Shown here: positions 43,636 to 58,887 of the stretch, one piece after another | How positions within the stretch are numbered: the stretch's first letter is position 1 | How the letters are laid out: the number at the start of each line of letters is the position of its first letter | NCBI GenBank assembly: GCA_958295945.1 | Contig: OY282386.1 | Location: forward strand, 1,875,371-1,939,370 | DNA length: 64,000 bases | Reading direction: 5' to 3' | Source: Candidatus Poribacteria bacterium | GTDB taxonomy: Bacteria > Poribacteria > WGA-4E > WGA-3G | Notes under the pieces: model-generated | Told to the model about the DNA's origin: nothing | Database searches by the model: none | Seen by the model: only the letters and a program-made list of their open reading frames with translations | Translations under genes and position numbers: made by a program

Positions 43636-45588
43636 ATGGAAATTCAAAATTCCCCATCATATAATCCCTCACAAATTCCTCCCCACGGGGTTACATTCAA
43701 ATCAATCCTAATCGCTGCTATCCTGATACCGATCAACTGTTATTGGGTGATCGAGATGGAGGTAATCCGTTATTCTGGTCATCCTGTCACTATTTCACTC
43801 TTCTTTAACGTCATTTTTAGTTTGTTCGTGATTATTGGATTCAACCAACTGTTGAAGCGATTTCTTCCTCGTTTGGCATTAGCTCAAAGTGAATTGGTGA
43901 TTGTCTACTTGATGCTTTCCATTGCATCTGGAATCACTGGTCATGATATGCTTGAGATATTAGTGCCGATGTTGGGACATGCATTTCGCTTTGCAACGCC
44001 TGAAAATGAATGGCAGCAGTTGTTCCTACCTTTCCTACCAGAATGGCTTACGGTGCGTAATAGTCAGTTATTGCAAGGTTACTATGAGGGTGATTTACCA
44101 CTCTATACCACTGAAACATTACTCGGTTGGGCAACACCTGTTCTGTGGTGGGCAGTGTTTATAGGTTTTCTGGTATTTGGTATGCTCTGCATCAACATCA
44201 TCATTAGAAAACAGTGGATAGAGTATGAAAAACTCAGTTATCCGATTATCCATCTTCCTCTTCAATTGACAGGGGCAGTCCACAACAACTTTTTTAAGAA
44301 TAAGGTAATGTGGGTAGGTTTCTGCGTTGCGGGTGGTTTAGCATTGTGGAACGGAATAAGTTTCTTATATCCTTTCATACCTGAATTACCAACTCGGAAT
44401 CGGAGTTACCGCATTTTCACTGATAGTCCTTGGAATGCTATGGGAAATATACCGTTTTCTCTTTACCCATTTGCTATAGGACTTGGATTTTTCATTCCAC
44501 TTGATCTCTCATTTTCTTGTTGGTTTTTCTTTTGGTATTGGCGTTTGTTGCGTGTCGCTGGAGCAATGTTCGGATTCAGGAGTTTGCCAAGATTCCCTTA
44601 TATGAATGAGCAAGCATCTGGTGGATATCTTGCATTATGCGTTCTTGCTATTTGGGCAAGTAGACGACACCTTCTTTGGGTCGGTCGCATGATATTCAGT
44701 AAAGACACATCTCAATCCGCTAATGATGGACCATTAACATATAGAGGTGCGATATTTGGATTGATAGTTGCACTATTGTTTTTAGTGGTATTTTGTTATT
44801 ACGGTGGTGCAAATATCGGCATCATGTTGGCTTTCTTTGTGATTTACTATATGATTTCTATTGCGATCACACGCATGCGTGCTGAGTTGGGAACACCAGT
44901 TCACGATCTACACTATTCTGGACCTGATCAAATATTAACGCGTGTCGTAGGTACGCGTAAGTTAGGTAGAGATAATCTAGTCATGTTTTCACTGTTTTGG
45001 TTTATCAACCGAGCCTACCGAAGCCACCCAATGCCTCACCAATTGGAAGGTTTCAAGATAATGGAGCGAACAAACATGTCAATGCGGCGTATTGTTTTTG
45101 CATTGATGTTCGCCGCTGCATTGGGGTCCTTAGCAGGTTTTTGGGCATTAATAGACCGAGGCTACCAATTGGGTATGGAAGTTCGCGCTTATTCGCCATC
45201 CTTGAGTGCTTTCGGCATTGAACCCTACAGAAGACTCACTGGTTGGTTACAATCCCCAACTGGACCACTTATTCCTGAATCATCTTTTACGGTGTTTGGC
45301 TATTTAATGACAACGATCCTGATGCTGTTTCGGATGCGATTTGTATGGTGGCCTTTTCATCCTGCGGGATTCGCCATTTCAACAAGTTGGGGTATGAATG
45401 TTACTTGGGGATGTTTATTCATGAGTTGGCTTGTTAAATTAATCATTTTAAAATATGGTGGACCTGTGAGATATCGGAAGATAGCACCGTTCTTTTTAGG
45501 TCTTATTCTTGGTGAATTCACAATCGGAAGTCTCTGGACAATCATTGGGATTGTCGGTGGAATGCCAACTTATGGTTTTTGGGTTTAA
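43636..45588 (+). CDS. polytopic membrane protein (DUF6785/DUF6784-like)
   Basis: A 650-residue protein with about 12-14 membrane helices. Among them are SILIAAILIPINCYWVI, VTISLFFNVIFSLFVIIGF, VLWWAVFIGFLVFGMLCINIII, AIFGLIVALLFLVVFCYY and a C-terminal LGLILGEFTIGSLWTIIGIV. Large soluble loops hold conserved-looking segments (WIEYEKLSYPIIHLPLQL, RMRAELGTPVHDLHYSGPDQ, RSHPMPHQLEGFKI). This matches DUF6785-type proteins of planctomycete-like and poribacterial genomes, which resemble oligopeptide transporters in layout; the substrate is unknown. Its stop shares TTAA with the stop of the convergent P-type-ATPase-like gene, a 4-bp overlap. Confidence 0.72.
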   Translation: MEIQNSPSYNPSQIPPHGVTFKSILIAAILIPINCYWVIEMEVIRYSGHPVTISLFFNVIFSLFVIIGFNQLLKRFLPRLALAQSELVIVYLMLSIASGITGHDMLEILVPMLGHAFRFATPENEWQQLFLPFLPEWLTVRNSQLLQGYYEGDLPLYTTETLLGWATPVLWWAVFIGFLVFGMLCINIIIRKQWIEYEKLSYPIIHLPLQLTGAVHNNFFKNKVMWVGFCVAGGLALWNGISFLYPFIPELPTRNRSYRIFTDSPWNAMGNIPFSLYPFAIGLGFFIPLDLSFSCWFFFWYWRLLRVAGAMFGFRSLPRFPYMNEQASGGYLALCVLAIWASRRHLLWVGRMIFSKDTSQSANDGPLTYRGAIFGLIVALLFLVVFCYYGGANIGIMLAFFVIYYMISIAITRMRAELGTPVHDLHYSGPDQILTRVVGTRKLGRDNLVMFSLFWFINRAYRSHPMPHQLEGFKIMERTNMSMRRIVFALMFAAALGSLAGFWALIDRGYQLGMEVRAYSPSLSAFGIEPYRRLTGWLQSPTGPLIPESSFTVFGYLMTTILMLFRMRFVWWPFHPAGFAISTSWGMNVTWGCLFMSWLVKLIILKYGGPVRYRKIAPFFLGLILGEFTIGSLWTIIGIVGGMPTYGFWV

Positions 45589-48311
45589 GTTGCATCTTTA
45601 CGCGGATCAATTGCCAGATTTAAGGGTAATAAGAGTAATATGATACTACACAAACCAGTGATTATCCAATCCTTTTGAAGTGGTACAATTCCAATTGTAG
45701 TTTGCATTATTTCAATATACATACCAGACATATAGAGTCCTATCACCACTAAAAAAACAAGTAATAATTGTATGTTAACGAACATCCTTTTGAACAGTGA
45801 TTCCCATGGATAGCGTACACATTGGAAGTAAGAAACCACCTGTGCAAAGAACAGTGTCGTACATGCTGCTGATTGTGCGTCTATGAGAACAAATTCATCT
45901 GAAGTATATGTTATTACCAGAAAATGGATAATCGTCATTAAACTGATGACAACACTTCTACATACAATATCAAACACACCAGTCTTGGGGAGTATAGATG
46001 TAGTTCTACTGGTATTAAACTGGTTCGTATCAACCAATATTTTCTCATATCCTAACCCGATAGCTGGCAGTAGTGTTGTCAAAAATTGCACCCAAATAAC
46101 CTGTTTAAGTGACAGAGGCATTTCATAATCAAATCCTGTGTGTAGTATCAAGCCAAAAATCACAACCAAAAATTGAGTCATCGTGCAAGACAGGCTCCAC
46201 CGAAGAGATCCTGCGAGATTTTGATATACTTGGCGTGCATATATCATACACTCCATTACTGACTTAAATCCTTTATCAACTATCAGACAATCTGCATGGT
46301 CTTGTGCGTAATGCGTAGCATATCTCGTATCAGCGAAAGCGAGGTCTGCAGCAACCATAGCCCGTTGATCAATTGAATTTTGTCCTAAAAAACCAACTGA
46401 ATAATTATGTCGTTTCAAACTCCGAACAATGTTCCGTCTTTGTTCCTGTGTCGGCTGAGAATATGCACTCAAATTAGGAGCTTCTTGATCAAATTCTTGT
46501 GTTGAAAGATGGATGAGTTCTTCTCTTGTTGCGACTGCATTTCGTGTGTGTGCAAGTCCAAGTTCTCTTGCTAAGTCAGTTGTATTTTGCTCATCTCCCT
46601 CACAAATCAGAATGACTTTAATACCTGTGTCAAGGAACGACTTAATTACCGAAATTGTCTCATTCTTATCTGTGACAGAAAAACTGATGTATCCAAGAAA
46701 AGTTGATACACCTTGAACTTCAGGAGGAGACAACGGAATTTCAGAATGTATAGATGCGACTCCGTATACATTTTCTCTGGAATTATCGAGGTATTTTAGT
46801 ATTTCATTACAAATTTCAAACTGTTCGTAGGAAAACTCGGTGATTGCCCCGTTCACAAGGATAGAATCAGATGCATCCAAGACATCGCGTGCATCACCAA
46901 CAATAATATTAAGATACTCATTTTCCCCAGATTTAAACACGTGAAGTTCATACCCAAAGTTTGGGGTCCAAGGGTATTCAGAAACGAGCTGCATGTTTGC
47001 TTTTATATCGTCTAATTGGTATCCGAGTTTTTCCACAGCGTCATGTATAACTTGTTGATGTGATTGTTCTGCGTTGTTTCTATCATAATATCTTTCTCCA
47101 GATGTTCCTAGACCAGCCGTTAATACCAAACCGGGTGCGCCTTGTGGTATATGAAATCCAGGAGGAATATTGCTGACGCGTTTGCTCTTTTCATCAGGCG
47201 GATGATCTTCCAGCGTAGTCAACCATTTTTCCCAAGTTGAACGATTAACAATTTGTTCATCTACAAAGATATTGGAAATTTTCAGAGATTGTGTACTGGC
47301 AATACCGTTTTCATCAGAACAGAAAGCGGTGAGTCGATTCAATTTCTCAAAATTTTGACTGTTTCGTAGTAGTAATCCCCTTTTGATCAGTCCGAAAGAT
47401 CTATAATCTATAATTGTGTTCAATAGGAGAGTAATGTCATAGGGAGTTGCAGCAATAGCATAAAGTAATCCGATTTGAACATATTTTATCAAGTTAGTAG
47501 TGGGATTTTGCGATGATTGTTGCCACCATAAGATTAGACCTGCAATAGTTCCCACGACGAGTCCGGCGAAAATAAAGATATCTTTACTGAACTTTAATTG
47601 GTTTTCAGTAGCAGTGATTTCTTTAGGCATCAGTCGGTCTTCAGCATTTATTTTATGCATTTCCATTTCATCACCGGTTCTGACAACGATAGCATTACCG
47701 ACTCCTGCCTCAACAAAAGTTCCTCCAAAAACCATATTTACCTGTTTTTCTGGTGGTAGTCCAGTTTCTGTTATTTCTTTTACAGTCTTTTTCGCAGCAC
47801 CACTACTTCCGAACAAAGCGGACTCATCAACAGACAATCCATCGGATTTTATGATTCGTGCATCAGCGGGAATATAGTTTCCCTGTCTGAGTACAAGCAG
47901 GTCACCTGGAACAATGTCTGATGGCTCACACTTTTCTTGCTTACCTTGGCGGATAACAGATACTTTGTAACTAAATTTTTCTTGCAGTTGTTTTTGTCTA
48001 ATTTGAAAACGAATTGCAACAAAAGTCGTCCACATTAACGATAAAACAGCAATTGTCCCGACGAGAAATGTAGATTGCCAATCACCGGTAATACCGAAAA
48101 GAACAGCGGCAATTACCAATATTAACAATCTCCAGTTAAAAACCTGTTCAAGATAAGATGCCTTCTTCCAAGGATTCGATTTGGTATTTGAGACATTTTC
48201 GCCGTGTTGATCAATTAACTTTTCAACTTCAGCATGACTCAATCCAGATTCTAGATCTGTGTTGAACTGGTTTTGCAGATAAGATATTGTTTCTGCATAA
48301 AAATTAACCAT
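45585..48311 (-). CDS. P-type-ATPase-like protein lacking catalytic motifs (pseudo-ATPase)
   Basis: A 908-residue protein from the ATG at 48311 (AGGA 7 nt upstream; a GTG at 48329 is less likely). The layout is that of a P2 (SERCA-like) cation pump: an N-terminal cation-ATPase domain, an actuator domain with IVPGDLLVLRQGNYIPADARII, membrane helices, P and N domains, and a C-terminal helix bundle (SLKQVIWVQFLTTLLPAIGLGYE). Every catalytic motif is altered. TGES reads FGSS (167-170), PEGL reads PYDI, DKTGT reads DENGI (333-337), KGAPE is VGDAR, TGD reads EGD in an altered context, and GDGxND reads GQNSID (643-648). Asp333 alone survives. Ion pumping is improbable; a sensor or scaffold role is possible. 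No frameshift or stop is present. Confidence 0.85.
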   Translation of the reverse strand: MVNFYAETISYLQNQFNTDLESGLSHAEVEKLIDQHGENVSNTKSNPWKKASYLEQVFNWRLLILVIAAVLFGITGDWQSTFLVGTIAVLSLMWTTFVAIRFQIRQKQLQEKFSYKVSVIRQGKQEKCEPSDIVPGDLLVLRQGNYIPADARIIKSDGLSVDESALFGSSGAAKKTVKEITETGLPPEKQVNMVFGGTFVEAGVGNAIVVRTGDEMEMHKINAEDRLMPKEITATENQLKFSKDIFIFAGLVVGTIAGLILWWQQSSQNPTTNLIKYVQIGLLYAIAATPYDITLLLNTIIDYRSFGLIKRGLLLRNSQNFEKLNRLTAFCSDENGIASTQSLKISNIFVDEQIVNRSTWEKWLTTLEDHPPDEKSKRVSNIPPGFHIPQGAPGLVLTAGLGTSGERYYDRNNAEQSHQQVIHDAVEKLGYQLDDIKANMQLVSEYPWTPNFGYELHVFKSGENEYLNIIVGDARDVLDASDSILVNGAITEFSYEQFEICNEILKYLDNSRENVYGVASIHSEIPLSPPEVQGVSTFLGYISFSVTDKNETISVIKSFLDTGIKVILICEGDEQNTTDLARELGLAHTRNAVATREELIHLSTQEFDQEAPNLSAYSQPTQEQRRNIVRSLKRHNYSVGFLGQNSIDQRAMVAADLAFADTRYATHYAQDHADCLIVDKGFKSVMECMIYARQVYQNLAGSLRWSLSCTMTQFLVVIFGLILHTGFDYEMPLSLKQVIWVQFLTTLLPAIGLGYEKILVDTNQFNTSRTTSILPKTGVFDIVCRSVVISLMTIIHFLVITYTSDEFVLIDAQSAACTTLFFAQVVSYFQCVRYPWESLFKRMFVNIQLLLVFLVVIGLYMSGMYIEIMQTTIGIVPLQKDWIITGLCSIILLLLPLNLAIDPRKDAT

Positions 48312-48438
48312 GATATTTCCTAACAACACTTTCTTTTGATGATTCTAAATTATATCGTATGTGTAATATAAGGATAATTCCAATTTATGAACTTATTTAT
48401 AAGCACGATTTGATTGAAAACTATTTATTATTGCAATC

Positions 48439-49347
48439 TTATGTCCAGACTTTAGCACCATCAAGGTCAGGACCCAATATCTTTGTTTCGCATCGGATAT
48501 TGTTATTACTAAATGCTTCCTGCATATTTTTACCAACTTGCTCCATGTTGTCAAGACAGTAAGCTGCAATTGTTGGCCCTGCACCACTGAGGGCAATGCT
48601 CAACGCTCCTGCAGAAGTAGCTGCATCAACGACATCATTATATCCAGGGATCAATGTGCTGCGATACGGTTGATGAAGTTTATCATTCATCGCAGTAGAA
48701 AGCAGATCTAATTTTCCAGATGCTATACTTGCCACAAGTAATGAACTACGACTGATGTTATATATAGCATCAGCAAACTCTACATTTTTTGGTAAAATGT
48801 CGCGTGCCTTCTGTGTTGATAAAGTGAATTCAGGGATAGCGAGGACAATGTTTAAATCTGGATCGCAGGGAACCTGTATTGTATGGATATGTTCGTTTTC
48901 TTGGACCGAAATAACTAATCCGCCATATAAAGAGGCAGCGACATTATCTGGATGCCCTTCAATTGCTGTAGCAAAATTGAGCAGTTCTGAACGAGAAAAC
49001 GGATTTCCACACAGAACATTTGCTGTCAATAACCCGCCGAGGATAGCAGTTCCACTACCACCTAAACCACGAATAGCAGGAATACCGTTGGCAATGTTCA
49101 AAATTAAACCATTTGGAAGTTGTTGACCACTTCTTTTATAAACGGATTCTACTGCATGATATGCGATATGATCTGTTGTGCTTGGTATTTTTTCAGCATC
49201 TACACCACTCACAACAACTTCAGTTTTTTTCTCGGATATTTCCAAAGATACGGTGCTATAAAGTTGCAGAGCTAATCCCAGTACATCAAACCCTGGTCCC
49301 AAATTTGTTGTGCTTGCGGGTATTCTCGCTGTAGCTTTTTGAGACAT
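48439..49347 (-). CDS. thrB: homoserine kinase
   Basis: A 302-residue GHMP kinase beginning ATARIPASTTNLGPGFDVLGLAL, as in ThrB. The GHMP phosphate-binding loop is PAIRGLGGSGTA (about 90-101), where the usual GSSA reads GGSGT; the third motif is LSGAGPTIAAY. It phosphorylates homoserine for threonine synthesis. The aminotransferase gene ends 20 bp upstream, probably the same operon. No thrC or hom gene is in the window. Confidence 0.93.
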   Translation of the reverse strand: MSQKATARIPASTTNLGPGFDVLGLALQLYSTVSLEISEKKTEVVVSGVDAEKIPSTTDHIAYHAVESVYKRSGQQLPNGLILNIANGIPAIRGLGGSGTAILGGLLTANVLCGNPFSRSELLNFATAIEGHPDNVAASLYGGLVISVQENEHIHTIQVPCDPDLNIVLAIPEFTLSTQKARDILPKNVEFADAIYNISRSSLLVASIASGKLDLLSTAMNDKLHQPYRSTLIPGYNDVVDAATSAGALSIALSGAGPTIAAYCLDNMEQVGKNMQEAFSNNNIRCETKILGPDLDGAKVWT

Positions 49348-49367: not shown

Positions 49368-50540
49368 CTACAATTTGGAAACAGCGGTTTGTATCCTATT
49401 GAGGGCATCCTTTATATTTTCTAAGGAATTTGCATAAGACAGTCTAAGATACCCATCACCGTATTTCCCGAATGCTGTTCCGGGTAAAAGTGCAACCCCT
49501 ACCTCATCCATTAAATAATCAGCAAGTTCTTCACATGAAATTGGTAGTTTGGTTACATTCGGGAATACATAAAATGATCCAAGTGGTTTGACACAAGAAA
49601 TACCGTCAATAGCATTTAATCCATCAACAATGACATCTCGTCGTTGTCTAAACTCTGTAACCATCTGTGATACAAAGGTCTGCGGTCCAGTCAATGCTTC
49701 TATTCCAGCATATTGTGTGAAGGTGGCTGTGCATGAATTTGAGTTGATGGTCAATCGTGTTATCTTATCAGCAATGTGGCGAGGTGCAATCCCGTATCCA
49801 AGTCGCCATCCCGTCATTGCATAGGTTTTTGAATGTCCATCAATTAGAATTGTCTTTTCTTTCATTCCCGGTAGGCTTATGATACTTTGATGCGTGCCTT
49901 CATAGAGTAATCGCGAATAAACTTCATCAGTGAGGATATAGAAGTTATGTTTCTGCGCGAGTTCGGCAATTGCGTTAAGGTCTGCTTCGGTAAGCGTTCC
50001 CCCTGTTGGATTTTGCGGTGAATTGAGAATCAATAACTTGGTTCTGTCAGAAATGGCTTCAACTAGATCATCAATACGGAAGCGAAAGTCAACTTCCTCT
50101 CGGAGTGGCAGAGGAATTGCTTTACCACCGATAAACTCAATGACCGATTCATAGACTGGAAATCCTGGTTCTGGATAGATTACTTCATCCTCATCATCCA
50201 CTAATGCTAAGATAGTAAAGAAGATGATCGGTTTTGCGCCAGGAGTTACTGTGACTTCGTCTGGGTGAATATCAATATTACGAGTTTCACCGATATGTTT
50301 TGCGACAACTTCTCGGAATTCGGGTATTCCTGCGGATGGACAATAACCTGTATGTCCATCTTTCATTGCCTTAAACGCCGCTCCACATATATTCATTGGG
50401 GTCGAAAAGTCTGGTTGCCCAATTTCTAAATGTATAATATCTTTACCTTGTGCTTCTAAACTCTTGGCTTTGGCTAACACCTCAAATGCCGATTCTGTTC
50501 CCAAGCGGTTCATACGCTTGGCGAATGTAGGGCTGCCCAA
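49368..50540 (-). CDS. class I/II pyridoxal-phosphate aminotransferase (aspartate aminotransferase-like)
   Basis: A 390-residue fold-type I aminotransferase. The PLP Lys is K238 in GHSKTYAMTGWRLGYG; SPQNPTGG (174-181) and LTDEVYSRLLYEG hold other cofactor contacts; a C-terminal Arg is in GDGYLRLSY. It starts with TTG at 50540 because AAAGGAGG lies 5 nt upstream; an ATG at 50516 has no such site. It probably uses aspartate or an aromatic or alanine-type amino acid; the thrB neighbour suggests aspartate-family metabolism. Confidence 0.92.
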   Translation of the reverse strand: MGSPTFAKRMNRLGTESAFEVLAKAKSLEAQGKDIIHLEIGQPDFSTPMNICGAAFKAMKDGHTGYCPSAGIPEFREVVAKHIGETRNIDIHPDEVTVTPGAKPIIFFTILALVDDEDEVIYPEPGFPVYESVIEFIGGKAIPLPLREEVDFRFRIDDLVEAISDRTKLLILNSPQNPTGGTLTEADLNAIAELAQKHNFYILTDEVYSRLLYEGTHQSIISLPGMKEKTILIDGHSKTYAMTGWRLGYGIAPRHIADKITRLTINSNSCTATFTQYAGIEALTGPQTFVSQMVTEFRQRRDVIVDGLNAIDGISCVKPLGSFYVFPNVTKLPISCEELADYLMDEVGVALLPGTAFGKYGDGYLRLSYANSLENIKDALNRIQTAVSKL

Positions 50541-50754: not shown

Positions 50755-51783
50755 CTATTCACTCTTCATGATCAATCCAGTTGAACCTGCTAACCATACA
50801 TGCTGAATATTCAGTGCATGTACTTTCATCATTTTCTGTTTTGTTTCTTTAAGAATCCATGTCTGACCGCCATCTGTTGTAGAGGTGGTGACACCGACAC
50901 CGAATTCACCACCCACTGCCCATCCTACTTTTTCACTTGCAAAACGGACACTTCGGAGTGTCTCTTCAGTTCCACTTATCTGTTTCTCCCATGTTACTCC
51001 ACCGTCTTTTGTATGGAGGATAATACCGTTTTCACCGACTGCCCAACCGGTATCCTTATTTAGCATGTGTATGTCTTCAAGAATATCTTCTTGACCAGTC
51101 TCTTGTGAAATCCACGTTTGCGCACCATCTTCGGTTTTCATGATAACGCTTTTCTGTGTTTTTTCATTGGGAAAAACACGTATACCTACAACAAATCCAG
51201 TCTCTTCATCAAGAAACTGAACAGAATTAAACATAGTTGTCTCATCATCACCAATACCAGAAACGAACTTCCCACCCTCGATGACTTTCCATTGTCGTCC
51301 GCCATTCCTTGTTGAAAGAATAGTTTCATTCTCGCCAACTACGTATCCAACTTTTTCATTGACAAAATTGACACTTGTAAGTGCTAAACCGGGCACCTTA
51401 CTGACTTGAAGTTCCCAATCTTTACCGTTGGTTGTATTGGCAATTAATCCATTCTGTCCTACTGCCCAACCGTGTTCTTCATCAAAAAAGTATAAATCAG
51501 TTAAGTCAGATTCAAGTCTGAGTTCGGATCTGTTCCATGTTTTCCCTCCATTCAACGTAAATCCGATGAAACCGGGATTTTCATAATCTTCAAATGAGGC
51601 TGAACCTACAGCCCATCCTGTTTTTTCGCCAGTAAAAAAGATCGACATATAGTCTCTGATAGCTGTATCATTTTCCTGGAGAACAAGCCATCCAGCTACT
51701 GCTGGTAAGGAAATCAATAAACTAAACATTATAGTAAATACAATGATATGTGAAGAAAATAAAGCCGATTTTATTTTTCTCAT
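50755..51783 (-). CDS. YCF48/BNR-repeat beta-propeller protein, exported
   Basis: A 342-residue protein. The signal peptide (about 9-30, SSHIIVFTIMFSLLISLPAVAG) is followed by a propeller with repeats of the GWAVG / T(T/K)(N/D)GG..W type (GWAVGSASF, GWAVGQNGLI, VGYVVGENETI, GWAVGENGIILHTKDGG, GWAVGGEFGV). This is the pattern of YCF48/HCF136-like and BNR sialidase-like proteins. YCF48 proper assists photosystem II assembly in phototrophs, but many non-photosynthetic bacteria carry such proteins and the function is unknown. AAAGGAG precedes the ATG. It stands alone. Confidence 0.82.
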   Translation of the reverse strand: MRKIKSALFSSHIIVFTIMFSLLISLPAVAGWLVLQENDTAIRDYMSIFFTGEKTGWAVGSASFEDYENPGFIGFTLNGGKTWNRSELRLESDLTDLYFFDEEHGWAVGQNGLIANTTNGKDWELQVSKVPGLALTSVNFVNEKVGYVVGENETILSTRNGGRQWKVIEGGKFVSGIGDDETTMFNSVQFLDEETGFVVGIRVFPNEKTQKSVIMKTEDGAQTWISQETGQEDILEDIHMLNKDTGWAVGENGIILHTKDGGVTWEKQISGTEETLRSVRFASEKVGWAVGGEFGVGVTTSTTDGGQTWILKETKQKMMKVHALNIQHVWLAGSTGLIMKSE

Positions 51784-51954: not shown

Positions 51955-53091
51955 TTACTGCCATTCAATATCATCGATTGATTGCGCGGTTGCCACCTGT
52001 TCAAGAAGTGCGTCAAGACGTGAACGACTCCGCATTCTTGAAACTTTATGAACAACTGTATCTGGCACTTCACCGATACGTAGGTCGAGTAGTTTCAAGA
52101 GAAACTCACGTTTGGCTTGTATCTGTCCACGTTTCTCACCTTGTTTAATGCCTTCATCTATCTTTCGTTCTATAAGTGCTTCTGCGCCTGTCATAATGAA
52201 TCTTTCAACCTCCTTATCATAAGTCTGTGATTGAATGAGTTGTTTCAACTGTTCTTGTTCCATCTTGGGTCGTCTAAAGAATATAAGAAAATACAAATAA
52301 AGTAACTCATGGTTGTGTAGTTCGGGATTTTCAGATGCTATTGTCTCTAAATGTTCAAGTGCGACAACCAATGCTTCTTTCATTGTACTTACATCTGCGT
52401 TTTCTTGTTGCAGCACAGTCATTAACCATCCAAAAGGGTGATCAACTTGAGTAAACGTCTCAATGTCTTCTTCCTTCACACCAAGAAACAAAGTTTCAAA
52501 TGTTGGGACAAAAGGTGTCATCAACTCAGGAATATCCATCGCAGTTGAAAGAGATATTGGTATCTCCCAACGTTGTGCTCCAGTATAATAGACAATCGGT
52601 AGGATGGGTCGCAAACGCCACGTGCTTCTCGGCACTTTACTGTTTTTTTGCTCTTCCAACTGTCCATGCCATATTTGACACATATAGGACAACAACCGAT
52701 ATCCCATAAGGTGGTCAACAGTAGACTGATGTTCTATGAGGATATAAATGGTTAGGTCATCACACAAGGTTGCATCTTGGAATGGCACAGTAAACACCAT
52801 ATCAGAAACTAAATCACGCAATGTATTATCAACAATATTTCTATTTACTATTTTAGTCTGCGTAAAGTCAAGGTGTTCTGCAAGTTCACTTGCAAGAATG
52901 AGAACTAACCCTTGTAAATTCTCTGCTTTCTTGAATAACCATCTTGCACTTTTGTCCGCAAAATGCCCAACTTTCGGATTAAATAAAGTACGTATCTCTT
53001 CTAAATCAGCAATTTTCGTATCTGTTTGCACTTTATCTCCTGGACCATAGCGTTGATTGTATAGACTAACATTAATCAGTACAGATGTCAA
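51955..53091 (-). CDS. Rpn/YhgA-type PD-(D/E)xK nuclease ('transposase_31' family)
   Basis: A 378-residue protein of the Rpn family of recombination-promoting DNases. The nuclease core lies in the first about 160 residues: FTVPFQDATLCDDLTIYILIEHQSTVDHLMGYRLLSYM gives Asp and the E-H-Q variant of the ExK motif, then LRPILPIVYYTGAQRW. A charged C-terminal tail (ALIERKIDEGIKQGEKRGQIQAKREFLLKLLDLRIGEVP) is typical. The start codon appears to be TTG at 53091 with no strong ribosome site, so the true start may differ. It carries no terminal repeats and is not an IS. Confidence 0.85.
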   Translation of the reverse strand: MTSVLINVSLYNQRYGPGDKVQTDTKIADLEEIRTLFNPKVGHFADKSARWLFKKAENLQGLVLILASELAEHLDFTQTKIVNRNIVDNTLRDLVSDMVFTVPFQDATLCDDLTIYILIEHQSTVDHLMGYRLLSYMCQIWHGQLEEQKNSKVPRSTWRLRPILPIVYYTGAQRWEIPISLSTAMDIPELMTPFVPTFETLFLGVKEEDIETFTQVDHPFGWLMTVLQQENADVSTMKEALVVALEHLETIASENPELHNHELLYLYFLIFFRRPKMEQEQLKQLIQSQTYDKEVERFIMTGAEALIERKIDEGIKQGEKRGQIQAKREFLLKLLDLRIGEVPDTVVHKVSRMRSRSRLDALLEQVATAQSIDDIEWQ

Positions 53092-53133: not shown

Positions 53134-54543
53134 TTATTTCGCTACAATTATGGTGCCAGTGGTATAACTCGTCCCAACCTGCAATTGATAGATGTAAATA
53201 CCACTTTCAACTATCTCACCGCTTTCATCTTTGCCATCCCAACGAAGTTCGTCTTCATCAAGTTGTGCAGTTAGAGATTTTACAAGAACACCATTTAGAT
53301 TAAAGAGAAGTACATTGAATTCTCCTTCACTGTCTTCAATTGTCCGTTTTGGAAAAACTACGGTGTTGAAGTCCGAATCACCGGAAAGGGGTGTAAATGG
53401 ATTTGGGAATGGTCTATCAAATACTCTAAGTCTTTTCTTTGCAGGTGCAGATTCATTTCCTGCCTCGTCAATTGCGGTCACAGCATAAGTAAATGTAAAA
53501 CTACCTTTTGGAATTTGTCTTTGATCAAAGTATTTGTACTCAGATGTTCCGTTTGCAGCGTTATCAACAGTAATCTCACCTTCAGTCAGTGGTTCAAGCG
53601 TTGTAGCCTCTGATGAACCGAACGATATTTTATACTTAACTACATCACGACTAACACTTGCATTCCAATTCAATTCTATACCTTCCATTTTAGCATCAAT
53701 TTTTATTGATGTTGGTGGTAAAGGTGCAGCAGAATCTTCTGTCACAATTACTTTCTGCTGAACGGAGCGTTCAGATTGCAAGAAAATGGACTTATATGCA
53801 GTTATCTGATATGTATGTTCTCCTGGTGGAACATTGACATCCCGAAATGTAGTGGATGCGCGATTTTCTACATTGATTACAGTTTCTACATCTCTATAAA
53901 TGATATATCCATTGACATCAGGATCTTCTGTTTTTTGCCAACGGAGCGTCACATCATTTTCTCCGGTAGTATCGGGGACAGCAGTGAATGAAGTAACAGG
54001 AGCAGGGGGTACATTTGGAATGACTTGTAATGTAAAATCGTCATTGTTTAGTTTAGAATCTGCTTGTCCTGGACGGATAAATTCTCCGATAGGCGTATCT
54101 TCATTGTTGCGTAAAATTACTTTAAATCCAGCTAAGAAGATTGTGTTAGGCGTGCGTGCATCAAAAGCAATGTCATATATAGAATTCTGAAAATCTCTGA
54201 TGTCCTTTTCAAGTTCCACACGTATGACATTTCCGCCAGAAATGTTGACGGTAGCCAGTAGTTTTTCCCCATCGCGCGTGATGCCTTTAAAATCTGTTGC
54301 TTTTGTTTCAAAACCTTTAGGCATTGTAATTTCAATAGTCTTAATTTCTTCACCTGGTTCTGCTAAAGACCTATCAATTGAAAGTGTAACAAGTAATGGT
54401 ACCGTTGAACTTGCTGGAACAATACCCTTGGATTCACCCACGACGTTAATCTCTCCGATAGAAGTTACCGCACTAAAACTCTGTGGTATTGCAATTACTA
54501 TTATACAGATGATGAAAAAAGTATTTAGAAGAGTGTCTTTCAT
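53134..54543 (-). CDS. exported fibronectin type III protein with FlgD/T9SS-like C-terminal domain
   Basis: A 469-residue protein. The signal peptide is about 1-25 (LLNTFFIICIIVIAIPQSFSA). A cohesin-like beta domain (about 28-165) and two FN3 domains (about 175-265 and 270-380, PPAPVTSFTAVPDTTGENDVTLRW, LPPTSIKIDAKMEGIELNW) follow. The last about 85 residues (FPNPFTP, FNLNGVLVKSL, WDGKDESGEIVESGIYIYQL) match the FlgD-Ig/type A sorting-like domain seen at the C-terminus of T9SS cargo. The upstream PorV-like gene is 17 bp away, consistent with a shared secretion role. Confidence 0.82.
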   Translation of the reverse strand: MKDTLLNTFFIICIIVIAIPQSFSAVTSIGEINVVGESKGIVPASSTVPLLVTLSIDRSLAEPGEEIKTIEITMPKGFETKATDFKGITRDGEKLLATVNISGGNVIRVELEKDIRDFQNSIYDIAFDARTPNTIFLAGFKVILRNNEDTPIGEFIRPGQADSKLNNDDFTLQVIPNVPPAPVTSFTAVPDTTGENDVTLRWQKTEDPDVNGYIIYRDVETVINVENRASTTFRDVNVPPGEHTYQITAYKSIFLQSERSVQQKVIVTEDSAAPLPPTSIKIDAKMEGIELNWNASVSRDVVKYKISFGSSEATTLEPLTEGEITVDNAANGTSEYKYFDQRQIPKGSFTFTYAVTAIDEAGNESAPAKKRLRVFDRPFPNPFTPLSGDSDFNTVVFPKRTIEDSEGEFNVLLFNLNGVLVKSLTAQLDEDELRWDGKDESGEIVESGIYIYQLQVGTSYTTGTIIVAK

Positions 54544-54560
54544 AGTATATATTCCTTTCT

Positions 54561-55517
54561 TTAGAACAGTAGATTTACCGAGAAACGTTGTGTTGTGTTA
54601 TCCTGTAACTCACCTGTTAGCAACTGAAAACCGTAATCAAGTTGTAGTGCAGTGCCACTTATTGGGATCTTTGCACTTCCACCAAGGTTGAGTGTATTTG
54701 CTGAATTTCCACTCAACTTCATACCATAGCCGCCTCGCACACCGATGGATGGGTTCACCCACATTTCCACACCGATTCGTGTGTAAAGTTCACTACTACG
54801 GGATAGTACATCTACTGTAGCCAAAGTTTCTTTTAAAATATTCGTGATAGCAGCACCCTGTGCACTCATCTCTGCAATAGCTTCAAGTTTGTAAGCGATA
54901 CCCGCTCTGATATTTATAGGTATCGTATCCGTTTCTTCATTTGAAATGCTAACATCTGCAGGAATTAAATTCTCTATTGACAAACCGAGACTTAGGCTCT
55001 TCACTAGTTTTGCTAATAGACCGACATCAAGCGAAACAGCAGAACTTGATGTTTCTGTGAAATATGGGTTTGAAGCAACAAATTCGTTTTCAGAGTCATA
55101 ATTTGTGCTGAAATACTTTATGTTTAGTCCCAACCCTATTTGCTGTAACAGTGTTCGTGCATAAGTAACCCGAATTGATTGTTCCTGATAAATGTCGGAG
55201 CTTTCAGATAGGATGCCGATGTTTGCACCGAGAGTTCCTATACTACCTATAGGTATAATCCCACTAACCGTGCTGTAGTTAACGAGATCGTTAAATCGCT
55301 GAGCATACGTTGCCCCAATCTGAATCTCTTCAATATATGCCAATCCAGCGGCGTTATAGTTTGCAGCGTTACTATCATCGGCAATTGCAACAAAAGCCCC
55401 ACCAAGACCGAGAGGACGCGCCCCAACACCGATATCATTAAACGCAGCATTTGCTGATGTACCGAAGTATAGTAACAATATCAGCATGTAGTAACTTTTC
55501 AATTTTATTCTTAACAT
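54561..55517 (-). CDS. PorV/PorQ family outer-membrane protein
   Basis: A 318-residue barrel protein. The signal peptide ends at SANA (about 24); the family signature GVGARPLGLGGAFVAIADDSNAANYNAAGLAYIE follows; the last strand ends FSVNLLF with terminal Phe, as in outer-membrane barrels. PorV in Bacteroidota carries T9SS cargo to the sortase; distant homologues occur widely. Pcm lies 8 bp upstream and the FN3/CTD gene 17 bp downstream. AGGAG precedes the ATG. Confidence 0.88.
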   Translation of the reverse strand: MLRIKLKSYYMLILLLYFGTSANAAFNDIGVGARPLGLGGAFVAIADDSNAANYNAAGLAYIEEIQIGATYAQRFNDLVNYSTVSGIIPIGSIGTLGANIGILSESSDIYQEQSIRVTYARTLLQQIGLGLNIKYFSTNYDSENEFVASNPYFTETSSSAVSLDVGLLAKLVKSLSLGLSIENLIPADVSISNEETDTIPINIRAGIAYKLEAIAEMSAQGAAITNILKETLATVDVLSRSSELYTRIGVEMWVNPSIGVRGGYGMKLSGNSANTLNLGGSAKIPISGTALQLDYGFQLLTGELQDNTTQRFSVNLLF

Positions 55518-55525
55518 ATTTTCTC

Positions 55526-56167
55526 CTACGAGGGACCAGTCATTGGGACAAAACTAACTCCTGTGATATATTTTGTGTCAACTTTACCAGAACGTTTCTC
55601 AATCAGTAAAAGTTCTTGTGTATTAGAACCAACGGGAATCACCATTCGTCCACCATCATTGAGCTGCTGCGTGAGACGAAAAGGTATTTTCTCTGGTGCT
55701 GCAGCCACGAGTACACCATCATAAGGTGCATGTTCAATCCATCCGAAATAACCGTTTCCCTGTTTAAGTTTTATATTATGATAGTTGAGTGTATCTAATC
55801 TTTTCTTCGCAATTTCCGCCAGTTCTGGTAGGATTTCAACTGAATATACTTCATTGGCAAGTTCTGCTAAAACTGCGGTTTGGTAGCCACAACCTGTTCC
55901 GATTTCAAGTACTTTAGACTCTCCATTCAATTCAAGCAATTCTGTCATCAATGCGACAATATAAGGTTGTGAGATCGTTTGTCCATATTCTATTGAGAGT
56001 GGTCTATCTTGATATGCTAATTTCCATAACTCAGATGAAACAAACTGATGTCTCTCAATTCTTTCCATCGCAGCGAGCACATTCTTATCACGAATACCAC
56101 GTCCTTTTATTTGTCTTCTAACCATATTATGGCGCGCTCTAACAAAATCATCAGAAGGTGACATCAT
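55526..56167 (-). CDS. pcm: protein-L-isoaspartate O-methyltransferase
   Basis: A 213-residue Pcm of normal length. Motifs are RPLSIEYGQTISQPYIVALM and the SAM-binding VLEIGTGCGYQTAVLAEL; the C-terminal LNDGGRMVIPVG is typical. It methylates isoaspartate to repair aged proteins. It lies 8 bp before the PorV-like gene, so it is in the envelope operon headed by SppA. Two ATGs in tandem at the start are preceded by AAGG. Confidence 0.95.
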   Translation of the reverse strand: MMSPSDDFVRARHNMVRRQIKGRGIRDKNVLAAMERIERHQFVSSELWKLAYQDRPLSIEYGQTISQPYIVALMTELLELNGESKVLEIGTGCGYQTAVLAELANEVYSVEILPELAEIAKKRLDTLNYHNIKLKQGNGYFGWIEHAPYDGVLVAAAPEKIPFRLTQQLNDGGRMVIPVGSNTQELLLIEKRSGKVDTKYITGVSFVPMTGPS

Positions 56168-56211
56168 CAGTAACCTTGCCTTTCATGACATTTTCAGACA
56201 TAAGTTCTATA

Positions 56212-58587
56212 TCACATACCGACCCTTATATCAAACGGGGTTAATAAAAAGACACGATGTTTTTTTAAGATATCAATCAATTTTAAACTATCGTTTTGTC
56301 CAAAGGATTGAAGGATATTTTGTATCTGTAGTGTTCTATTTGTTGACATCAACTGAATGTCACCCAATAATTGAGTTGCTAACGTTTGTCTTGGTAATCG
56401 GACAATCTCAACCTGTTTATTTTCTAAACCTGCGCTTGCTTGTGCGATGGATAATGCTGTACTGAGTCCACCAAGTTCATCTACCAATCCGTTATCTCTT
56501 GCTTGCCTTCCAGTCCAAATGAGTCCTTTTGCAACTTTTTCTACATCAGTTCGGCTTAAATGCTTTCTGCCACGAGTTACTTTTGCTACAAAATCGTTGT
56601 ACACCTCTTTAATTTGTTTTTTTAGGATTGCTTGTTCTTCTGGTGGATATTCGGAATAATTACTATAAAAATCTGCATTTTTTCCCCGTTTTAATATTTC
56701 TCTGTGTATGCCAAGTTTTTCAAATAGTCCTTTATAGGTATATTTGCCTCCAATCACTCCAATAGAACCTGTTATCGTCCCAGCTTCAGCAATAATCACA
56801 TCTGCGGGTGCAGCTATATAATAGCCACCAGATGCAGCGTAGTCTCCCATAGAAACTATAAGTGGTTTCTTGACAGTGAGTTGTACAAGTTCATTCCAAA
56901 TCATATCTGCAGCAATGACCAATCCACCACCACTGTCTATTCGTAAAACTACTGCTTTGATTGAATCGTTATATCGTGCATAATTGACTGCCCGAACGAT
57001 CGTATCAGAACCCATGACTCTTGTTCCTGTGAATAGGTCCGTAAAACTTTCTCCTGTCAACATCATACCTTCTGCTTCAATGACTGCGATTTTGGGTTTT
57101 GGTACAGACCATTCATGAGGAAATAATCCGCTTCTCAGATAATCATTGACATGTACGAAATTAACATCAGTACCAGAAAGTTTATTCGCTCTATGATTCA
57201 GTCCATCCGAATATACGATTTCATCAACAAGGTTGTTTCTTAAGGCTTCATTGGCAGTATACGGACCTTTGTCAATTAACTCTTTCACGAATTCTTGAGT
57301 CCACCCACGTGCTGTTGCAATATCATTTGTAAGTTGATCATACAAATCGTCAAGGATTGCAGTTATATTTTCACGATAAGGTTCAGACATATTTGTTCTT
57401 GTAAATCCATCTGATGCAGATTTATATTCACCGATATTTTCAAGTAGTGCGCGAACACCAATTTTGTCCAATAAACCTTTATAGAACGTGGGTTCGGTTC
57501 GTAACCCAATTAACCGTAAATAAGTACTCGGATGGATGAGTATAGAATCACATGCTGAAGCAACGATGTATTCTCCTGAAGTGCAATCAGTGATATAGGA
57601 GATTACGACTTTACCAGATTTCTTGAAATCCAAAATAGCATCACGGATCTCTTGATATCTACCCATGCCGTAGCTGCTACCAGAGATTTCTACAAGTGTT
57701 CCTGCAACATCTTTATCCCATTTAGCGATCCGTAATACTCTATCAGCTTCCTCCAATTTCATTCTTACAAAATGACGTTTTCGCATTATGGGTTTTGTAA
57801 TTGCGGCAGTAGAAAACTGAAAATAACCTACACCCGCATTTGATTTTCTGCTTTCTTCATAGTAATTTGCGCTTCCAATTCCATAATTCCCAATATTAAT
57901 GCCAAACCGAATATCAAAACTATTATCGCTGTTATATGTTCCACGCAACATTAGTTCCCGAATTGGACGAACTTCTACGCCATAACTAAGGTCTAATCCA
58001 GGAATATCCTGTATCTTTCGCATATCGACAGACAAAGTGGTACGCCATGTTCCCGGACGCAAAGCTACACCAATATCATAAGTTCTTCCAATCTTCTGAT
58101 TATGTAATTTTGGACGATTCAGATCTCGACCTATAGCACCGATTGAGAAAAAACGACGACGATACATCATACCGACCGACACCGATTTGAATTTATCATA
58201 CTCTTTATCATCAGAGTTTATCCAACTATAGGATGTACCCCAATATAAGGCACTACCGAAATGTCGTCCTGCCGATAGACTATATCGTGTGAAGTCAATA
58301 TCGTTTGGTGCATTGGCGAATTCCATGCTGAATCCACCACCTGGTGCGGAAATAAAGAAAGCATCGTCACCCGGATAGTCACTATGATATGTCCGTAGGT
58401 AATATAAATTGAGTGCACGACTTGTGCCTAATCCAGCAGGATTAAAAAATGTGGATAATGCATCATCACTCATTGCAACTGAGTTCGTTGGGAGATGTGT
58501 ATGCACCTTTGGAGGATTCGCTGTAGCATAAAAGGGGGTAATACTACAAAATAAAATGATGCAGAGAAATGTATTTCGAAACTTCAA
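56212..58587 (-). CDS. sppA: signal peptide peptidase SppA with N-terminal PorV-like beta-barrel domain
   Basis: A 791-residue protein from a TTG at 58587, chosen because AAGGA lies 7 nt upstream and it directly yields a signal peptide (MKFRNTFLCIILFCSITPFYATA). Earlier start codons at 58623 and 58674 lack a site. Residues about 24-265 resemble a PorV/UPF0164 barrel (DDALSTFFNPAGLG; repeated strands such as GTSYSWIN and VSVGMMYRRRFFSIGAIGRDL). Residues about 270-780 are a double-domain SppA with the catalytic Lys in GEYKSASDGF and the Ser in GDYAASGGYYIAAP. SppA degrades cleaved signal peptides and membrane peptides. E. coli SppA is an inner-membrane protein; here the barrel would place it at the outer membrane. 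The fusion is unusual. Confidence 0.9.
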   Translation of the reverse strand: MKFRNTFLCIILFCSITPFYATANPPKVHTHLPTNSVAMSDDALSTFFNPAGLGTSRALNLYYLRTYHSDYPGDDAFFISAPGGGFSMEFANAPNDIDFTRYSLSAGRHFGSALYWGTSYSWINSDDKEYDKFKSVSVGMMYRRRFFSIGAIGRDLNRPKLHNQKIGRTYDIGVALRPGTWRTTLSVDMRKIQDIPGLDLSYGVEVRPIRELMLRGTYNSDNSFDIRFGINIGNYGIGSANYYEESRKSNAGVGYFQFSTAAITKPIMRKRHFVRMKLEEADRVLRIAKWDKDVAGTLVEISGSSYGMGRYQEIRDAILDFKKSGKVVISYITDCTSGEYIVASACDSILIHPSTYLRLIGLRTEPTFYKGLLDKIGVRALLENIGEYKSASDGFTRTNMSEPYRENITAILDDLYDQLTNDIATARGWTQEFVKELIDKGPYTANEALRNNLVDEIVYSDGLNHRANKLSGTDVNFVHVNDYLRSGLFPHEWSVPKPKIAVIEAEGMMLTGESFTDLFTGTRVMGSDTIVRAVNYARYNDSIKAVVLRIDSGGGLVIAADMIWNELVQLTVKKPLIVSMGDYAASGGYYIAAPADVIIAEAGTITGSIGVIGGKYTYKGLFEKLGIHREILKRGKNADFYSNYSEYPPEEQAILKKQIKEVYNDFVAKVTRGRKHLSRTDVEKVAKGLIWTGRQARDNGLVDELGGLSTALSIAQASAGLENKQVEIVRLPRQTLATQLLGDIQLMSTNRTLQIQNILQSFGQNDSLKLIDILKKHRVFLLTPFDIRVGM

Positions 58588-58887
58588 AGAATAGTCCTTA
58601 TTTGTATTGGTTGGAATACACATGTTAAAATAACATATATCTAATTTATTGACAAGAAAATTGTATGATACCAATACTGTAAATGCTTATCTTGTGTGAA
58701 TTAGAATGTAAGAGTCGTAATGAATTGCGCGACTAAGAACTATCTATTTTATTAAAGGGATGACATTTTCAAAAATGGTAAAAATTCAATTAGATGGATT
58801 GAAATTTCTTCAATAAACTTTACGTCCCAACTGGACTAAAGGACAGTACTCATATTCTATAATCACTAAAGTTTATCTCTCAGTCAG
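58588..58887. other. gene-free gap
   Basis: About 300 nt between sppA and phyH. No ORF, tRNA or clear hairpin was recognised. It presumably holds the promoter of the sppA-pcm-porV operon, but I could not pick a convincing -35/-10 pair. Confidence 0.5.

Follow-up and report, generated by a model that had tools for sequence, protein, structure and literature searches.

Pumping is taken to define P-type ATPases, and use of their fold without ATP is disputed for human TMEM94. A gene in the 64,000-nucleotide stretch of a Candidatus Poribacteria genome analysed here (the window), from a phylum of sponge symbionts, raises the question of what such a fold can do when its catalytic motifs have been replaced. 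The gene (45585..48311, minus strand) encodes a 908-aa putative pseudo-P-type ATPase with a 10-TM P2A fold and A, P and N domains. An AGGA ribosome-binding site precedes its ATG at 48311, a GTG at 48329 upstream being a possible alternative start, and the frame runs through 908 codons without a stop, as the initial annotation had described.

Comparisons at the sequence level argued overwhelmingly for full-length homology to P2A Ca2+-ATPases (LMCA1/SPCA). The window protein matched LMCA1 of Listeria at 1.3e-48, LMCA1 and SPCA1 were the best PDB sequence matches, and a profile of the family matched LMCA1 along its length (1.7e-133). Profile–profile alignment of the family to intact pumps covered 863 columns at 21% identity (3e-127). 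Pfam matches included E1-E2_ATPase, Cation_ATPase_N and Cation_ATPase_C; the P-domain hydrolase and N-domain models were not found in this search of the window protein. Its score against TIGR01522 (PMR1/SPCA type) was 203 bits, relative to a cut-off of 798. An AlphaFold2 model displayed the P-type fold (pLDDT 84.3, pTM 0.77), including an N domain of ~180 aa (353-535), and the top Foldseek matches to this model were P-type ATPases only (E 1e-45, TM up to 0.77). The earlier description of a wholly retained fold is therefore borne out by both homology and structure prediction. By ancestry the protein is a member of the P2A family; by function, the features that define P2A are missing from it.

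These losses were apparent at every named motif. In the alignment, the TGES position reads FGSS (residues 167-170, 47802..47813), the M4 PEGL position reads PYDI (290-293, 47433..47444), replacing SERCA E309, and DKTGTLT reads DENGIAS (333-339, 47295..47315) with the Asp kept. The N-domain ATP-site FDSDRK reads WTPNFG (448-453, 46953..46970), KGAP reads VGDA (471-474, 46890..46901), TGD reads CEG (570-572, 46596..46604) and the GDGVND hinge reads GQNSID (643-648, 46368..46385), all on the minus strand. On the same strand, and using SERCA numbering for Ca2+ ligands and ATP contacts that the initial annotation had not mentioned (N768, E771, N796, D800, F487, K492), the M5 ligands N768/E771 correspond to T710/Q713 (46173..46184) and the M6 ligands N796/T799/D800 read Q742/T745/T746 (46074..46088). 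The Ca2+ ligands E309, N768, E771, N796 and D800 have all been replaced, and the ATP contacts F487, K492 and K515 read W448, G453 and V471. The initial annotation had all catalytic motifs rewritten, which holds for each motif that it named, but two of 12 catalytic residues survive, namely D333 (the phosphorylation-site Asp) and D648 (the second hinge Asp, last of GDGxND). Among intact non-Poribacterial pumps (n = 46), 43 had 12/12 of these residues and three had ten. Thus, relative to bacterial P2A Ca2+-ATPases (LMCA1 lmo0841; PMR1/SPCA type), with which it shares domain order, the 10-TM fold and full-length homology, the window protein carries substitutions at ten of 12 catalytic residues and at the Ca2+ ligands. 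With the phosphorylation, dephosphorylation, ATP and Ca2+ sites lost, established P-type enzymology would make pumping very unlikely.

We examined the occurrence and conservation of this state in the 60 nearest whole genomes. A single-copy orthologue, whether full-length, split or cut off at a contig end, was present in all but one, G004 (81% complete) being the sole genome in which none was found, and identity to the window protein ranged from 73 down to ~20%. Across 59 Poribacterial orthologues, the DKTGT Lys (0/59), the first hinge Asp of GDGxND (0/59) and the ATP-site K515 (0/59) were never kept. The substitutions were themselves shared, with Glu in place of the DKTGT Lys in 51/59 and Phe in place of the TGES Thr in 53/59, whilst the TGES Glu occurred in only 1/59. 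The second hinge Asp was kept in 58/59. The phosphorylated Asp was more variable, as 30/59 had Asp and 29/59 had lost it, 24 of these to Asn. Every sampled member of the window's genus retained D333 and D648, so residual phosphotransfer may, on sequence grounds, persist there. This retention, together with the report that ERMA (DKQGI, GSSANL) needs its Asp for Mg2+ uptake (PMC13322241), is what speaks for a degenerate yet working ATPase that uses D333 and other residues, as one group claims for TMEM94/ERMA. We consider this highly doubtful, given that the Lys, both Thr, E183, D703, K492 and K515 are lost, that sister genera in which the gene order is unchanged carry Asn in place of the Asp, and that the motif columns are under no special constraint (see below).

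Loss of the catalytic motifs could equally be expected of a decaying pseudogene. However, full-length open frames occur across the class, new residues are shared (the Phe and Glu described above), and dN/dS for 18 close pairs was 0.075-0.21 (Nei-Gojobori), near 0.1 rather than near 1, demonstrating purifying selection. In ten pairs, the values for this gene (0.074-0.209) were similar to those for the neighbouring thrB (0.054-0.184). Decay is therefore refuted for practical purposes. The proposal in the initial annotation of selection for a non-pumping role is, in turn, well supported by the low dN/dS, the shared substitutions and the lack of close homologues with intact motifs. Sequencing or assembly error was also ruled out, as the same state recurs across numerous separate assemblies and the genome carrying this gene has an intact P1B pump.

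The distribution of this constraint differs from that in working pumps. In intact pumps, motif columns had far lower entropy than the remainder of the protein (0.17 vs 1.56, P = 7e-18), whereas in the altered Poribacterial sequences the two did not differ (1.69 vs 1.77, P = 0.58). The non-motif part is constrained about as in intact pumps; hence, the motif columns now evolve at the background rate while the fold is still constrained. When the window's own family was set against intact pumps that have diverged to a similar extent (mean identity 0.55 vs 0.47), it was relatively relaxed in M1-M2 and M3-M4 and more tightly constrained in the N domain, M7-M8, loop M8-M9 and M9-M10. M5 stayed conserved. 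This shift was pronounced in the cytosolic loop M8-M9 (residues 833-846, RYPWESLFKRMFVN; 45774..45815, minus strand), a candidate docking site that is strongly conserved in the altered sequences only (0.34 bits in the window's family vs 1.95 in intact pumps). Of 27 residues newly invariant in the altered sequences, eleven fell on the M7-M10 cytosolic face (P = 8e-7, for a region picked post hoc), comprising D781, R785, Q830, R833, W836, E837, R842 and 895-898. Docking, folding and lipid contact could each account for a conserved N domain and M7-M10, and conservation alone does not tell them apart.

The same data bear on the main rival reading, a passive membrane conduit in which the motor was lost, the transmembrane route was kept, and an ion, neutral solute or lipid passes without ATP. 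The residues now at the Ca2+ ligand positions (T, Q, Q, T) are neutral but polar, not plainly hydrophobic, M5 is among the segments that remain conserved, and TMEM94, likewise a pump-like protein with lost motifs, holds lipid in its membrane domain (PMC12134183). On the other hand, M1-M4, which make up much of the entry path and ion site, have lost constraint, and the E771 position is Leu in 27/59 orthologues. Overall, we regard a conduit as unlikely, if worth keeping in view.

To what ancestor the family can be traced was clearest in two genomes from other lineages of the phylum, G060 and G061, each carrying an intact P2A pump and an altered copy. The intact pump lies on contig 79 of G061; in G060 it is divided into two halves at contig ends, in which TGES, DKTGT and GDGVND are present. 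The altered copy of G060 is full length on contig 17 and reads NKKGI; that of G061 consists of two contig-end fragments that do not show the motifs, the N-terminal one being 68% identical to its G060 counterpart. In G060, the altered copy adjoins a gene encoding a caspase-like domain fused to a cyclophilin-type prolyl isomerase (L162 2292-3707). In G061, a fragment is divergent from a CaCA Na+/Ca2+ antiporter gene, which is followed by a TrkH-like gene (L176 361-1641, 1657-2499). The altered sequences grouped as one clade apart from the intact pumps of those genomes (support 100/98). We considered that the motifs might drive this grouping and rejected it, as the clade persisted when all motif columns were removed (100/99); some long-branch attraction is possible given the long branches in the tree. 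These phylogenies identify the altered copy as an ancient paralogue of a bacterial P2A Ca2+-ATPase. The simplest history would place a single duplication, with loss of function, at the root of the phylum, followed by loss of the intact pump in the window's class, where no intact P2A remains and only the altered copy is found.

Coexistence of both copies in G060 and G061 is also what a regulator of the intact pump, whether dominant-negative or a partner subunit, would predict, with the present gene a leftover after the pump was lost. In the window's class, however, the altered copy is still under strong selection with no intact P2A present, and the only intact P-type pump in the window genome, and its one other E1-E2 ATPase, is a P1B pump (DKTGT, CPC). 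We therefore give this explanation a small chance. The window genome also encodes a CaCA antiporter, which could export Ca2+.

The genomic context of the gene was likewise conserved. Upstream and on the minus strand lie the conserved neighbours thrB (homoserine kinase, 48439..49347), whose product scores over the curated cut-off of its equivalog model, a class I/II aminotransferase gene (aspartate aminotransferase-like, 49368..50540) and a gene for a Ycf48/BNR-repeat protein (50755..51783). The co-directional order Ycf48-like/aminotransferase/ThrB/pump-like protein was found in 31/32 evaluable named Poribacterial loci and was at least partly kept in most distant families, including one with only 25% identity; it was absent in G044, G050 and G060. 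On the plus strand, a DUF6785/DUF6784 membrane protein gene (43636..45588) converges on the gene, the two stops overlapping by 4 bp; the convergent orientation is also seen in the near family, where this protein is 76-86% conserved. Conserved order with metabolic genes may reflect shared transcription only; a promoter and terminator scan between thrB and the pump-like gene gave chance-level, uninformative results. A Transposase_31/YhgA-like (Rpn) gene (51955-53091, minus strand) separates the Ycf48-like gene from its usual upstream neighbour and was absent from that spot in the other genomes compared. Further upstream (53134-58674, minus strand) are genes encoding a FlgD_ig-like 469-aa protein, a 318-aa protein of unknown type, a PCMT protein-isoaspartate methyltransferase and an S49 peptidase.

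Taking these data together, we see an even chance that the window protein is a pseudo-P-type ATPase, that is, an old P2A paralogue that lost its sites before the class diverged and was kept for an ATP-independent job as a non-cycling scaffold or regulator. Under such a model, phosphorylation, dephosphorylation and the binding of ATP and Ca2+ would have been lost before the class diverged, and the protein would stay in the membrane, probably as a scaffold or regulatory subunit that does not cycle. The conserved N domain and the cytosolic M7-M10 face, above all loop M8-M9, would dock a partner or ligand, whilst M1-M4, the parts that move during pumping, would be freed from that constraint. First candidate partners would be the products of the ycf48-like/aminotransferase/thrB cluster in which the gene lies. 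At the level of the phylum, we somewhat favour the view that a bacterial pseudo-P-type ATPase family arose from a Ca2+-pump duplication, that the pump scaffold took on an ATP-independent role as a membrane hub or regulator, and that the family outlived the real pump. Two further ideas were discarded. The E1-like pose of the AlphaFold model was considered as a locked state, but modelling of an intact control pump gave an E1-like pose too, so the pose is uninformative on locking. Extra positive charge on the cytosolic face, a feature of TMEM94, was not supported for loop M8-M9 (P = 0.98) or the C-terminus (P = 0.13), and the signal in loop M6-M7 was weak (P = 0.03).

The nearest precedent is TMEM94/ERMA, which resembles the Poribacterial family in having a P-type-like fold with DKTGT, TGES and GDGVND altered or absent (DKQGI and GSSANL in TMEM94). 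This human protein has an SPCA-like P-type fold for which one group found no ATPase activity (PMC12134183), whereas another argued for a Mg2+ pump (PMC13322241). The eukaryotic TMEM94 comprises 1356 aa, has an N-like domain of ~400 aa and keeps the Lys; the present family is bacterial, about 910-960 aa, has the N domain size given above and carries Glu for Lys. TMEM94 was not among the best 60 of 144 PDB sequences matched by the family profile, and separate origins are likely. KdpB is one of the regulated P-type pumps held in off states, and a change at TGES is reported to be able to hold the P-type fold non-cycling (PMC9651954). The catalytic motifs are nevertheless present in KdpB, which phosphorylation inhibits, whereas in the Poribacterial family the gene itself has lost the sites.

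No report of a bacterial pseudo-P-type ATPase was found in the literature searched, with subscription journals mostly outside it; if our reading is true, no bacterial family of this kind would have been described before within that literature. With dozens of bacterial sequences, an intact paralogue that can be traced and sites that are clearly lost, the family offers a clean test of ATP-free use of the fold. It also suggests that annotation pipelines may label such proteins Ca2+ ATPases though pumping is very likely impossible. Among the aligned non-Poribacterial matches, comparably altered copies were not seen and the DKTG core was kept in all. Three Clostridial P2A ATPases on a long branch (L114, CALWDJ010000003.1; L099, CASEEB010000185.1; L136, SVOK01000004.1) displayed partial motif changes, with TGES reading TGDD or TGVE, DKTGT reading DKTGV and GDGVND reading GDSVQD or GDSVED, and retained the Asp, Lys and Thr of DKTG.
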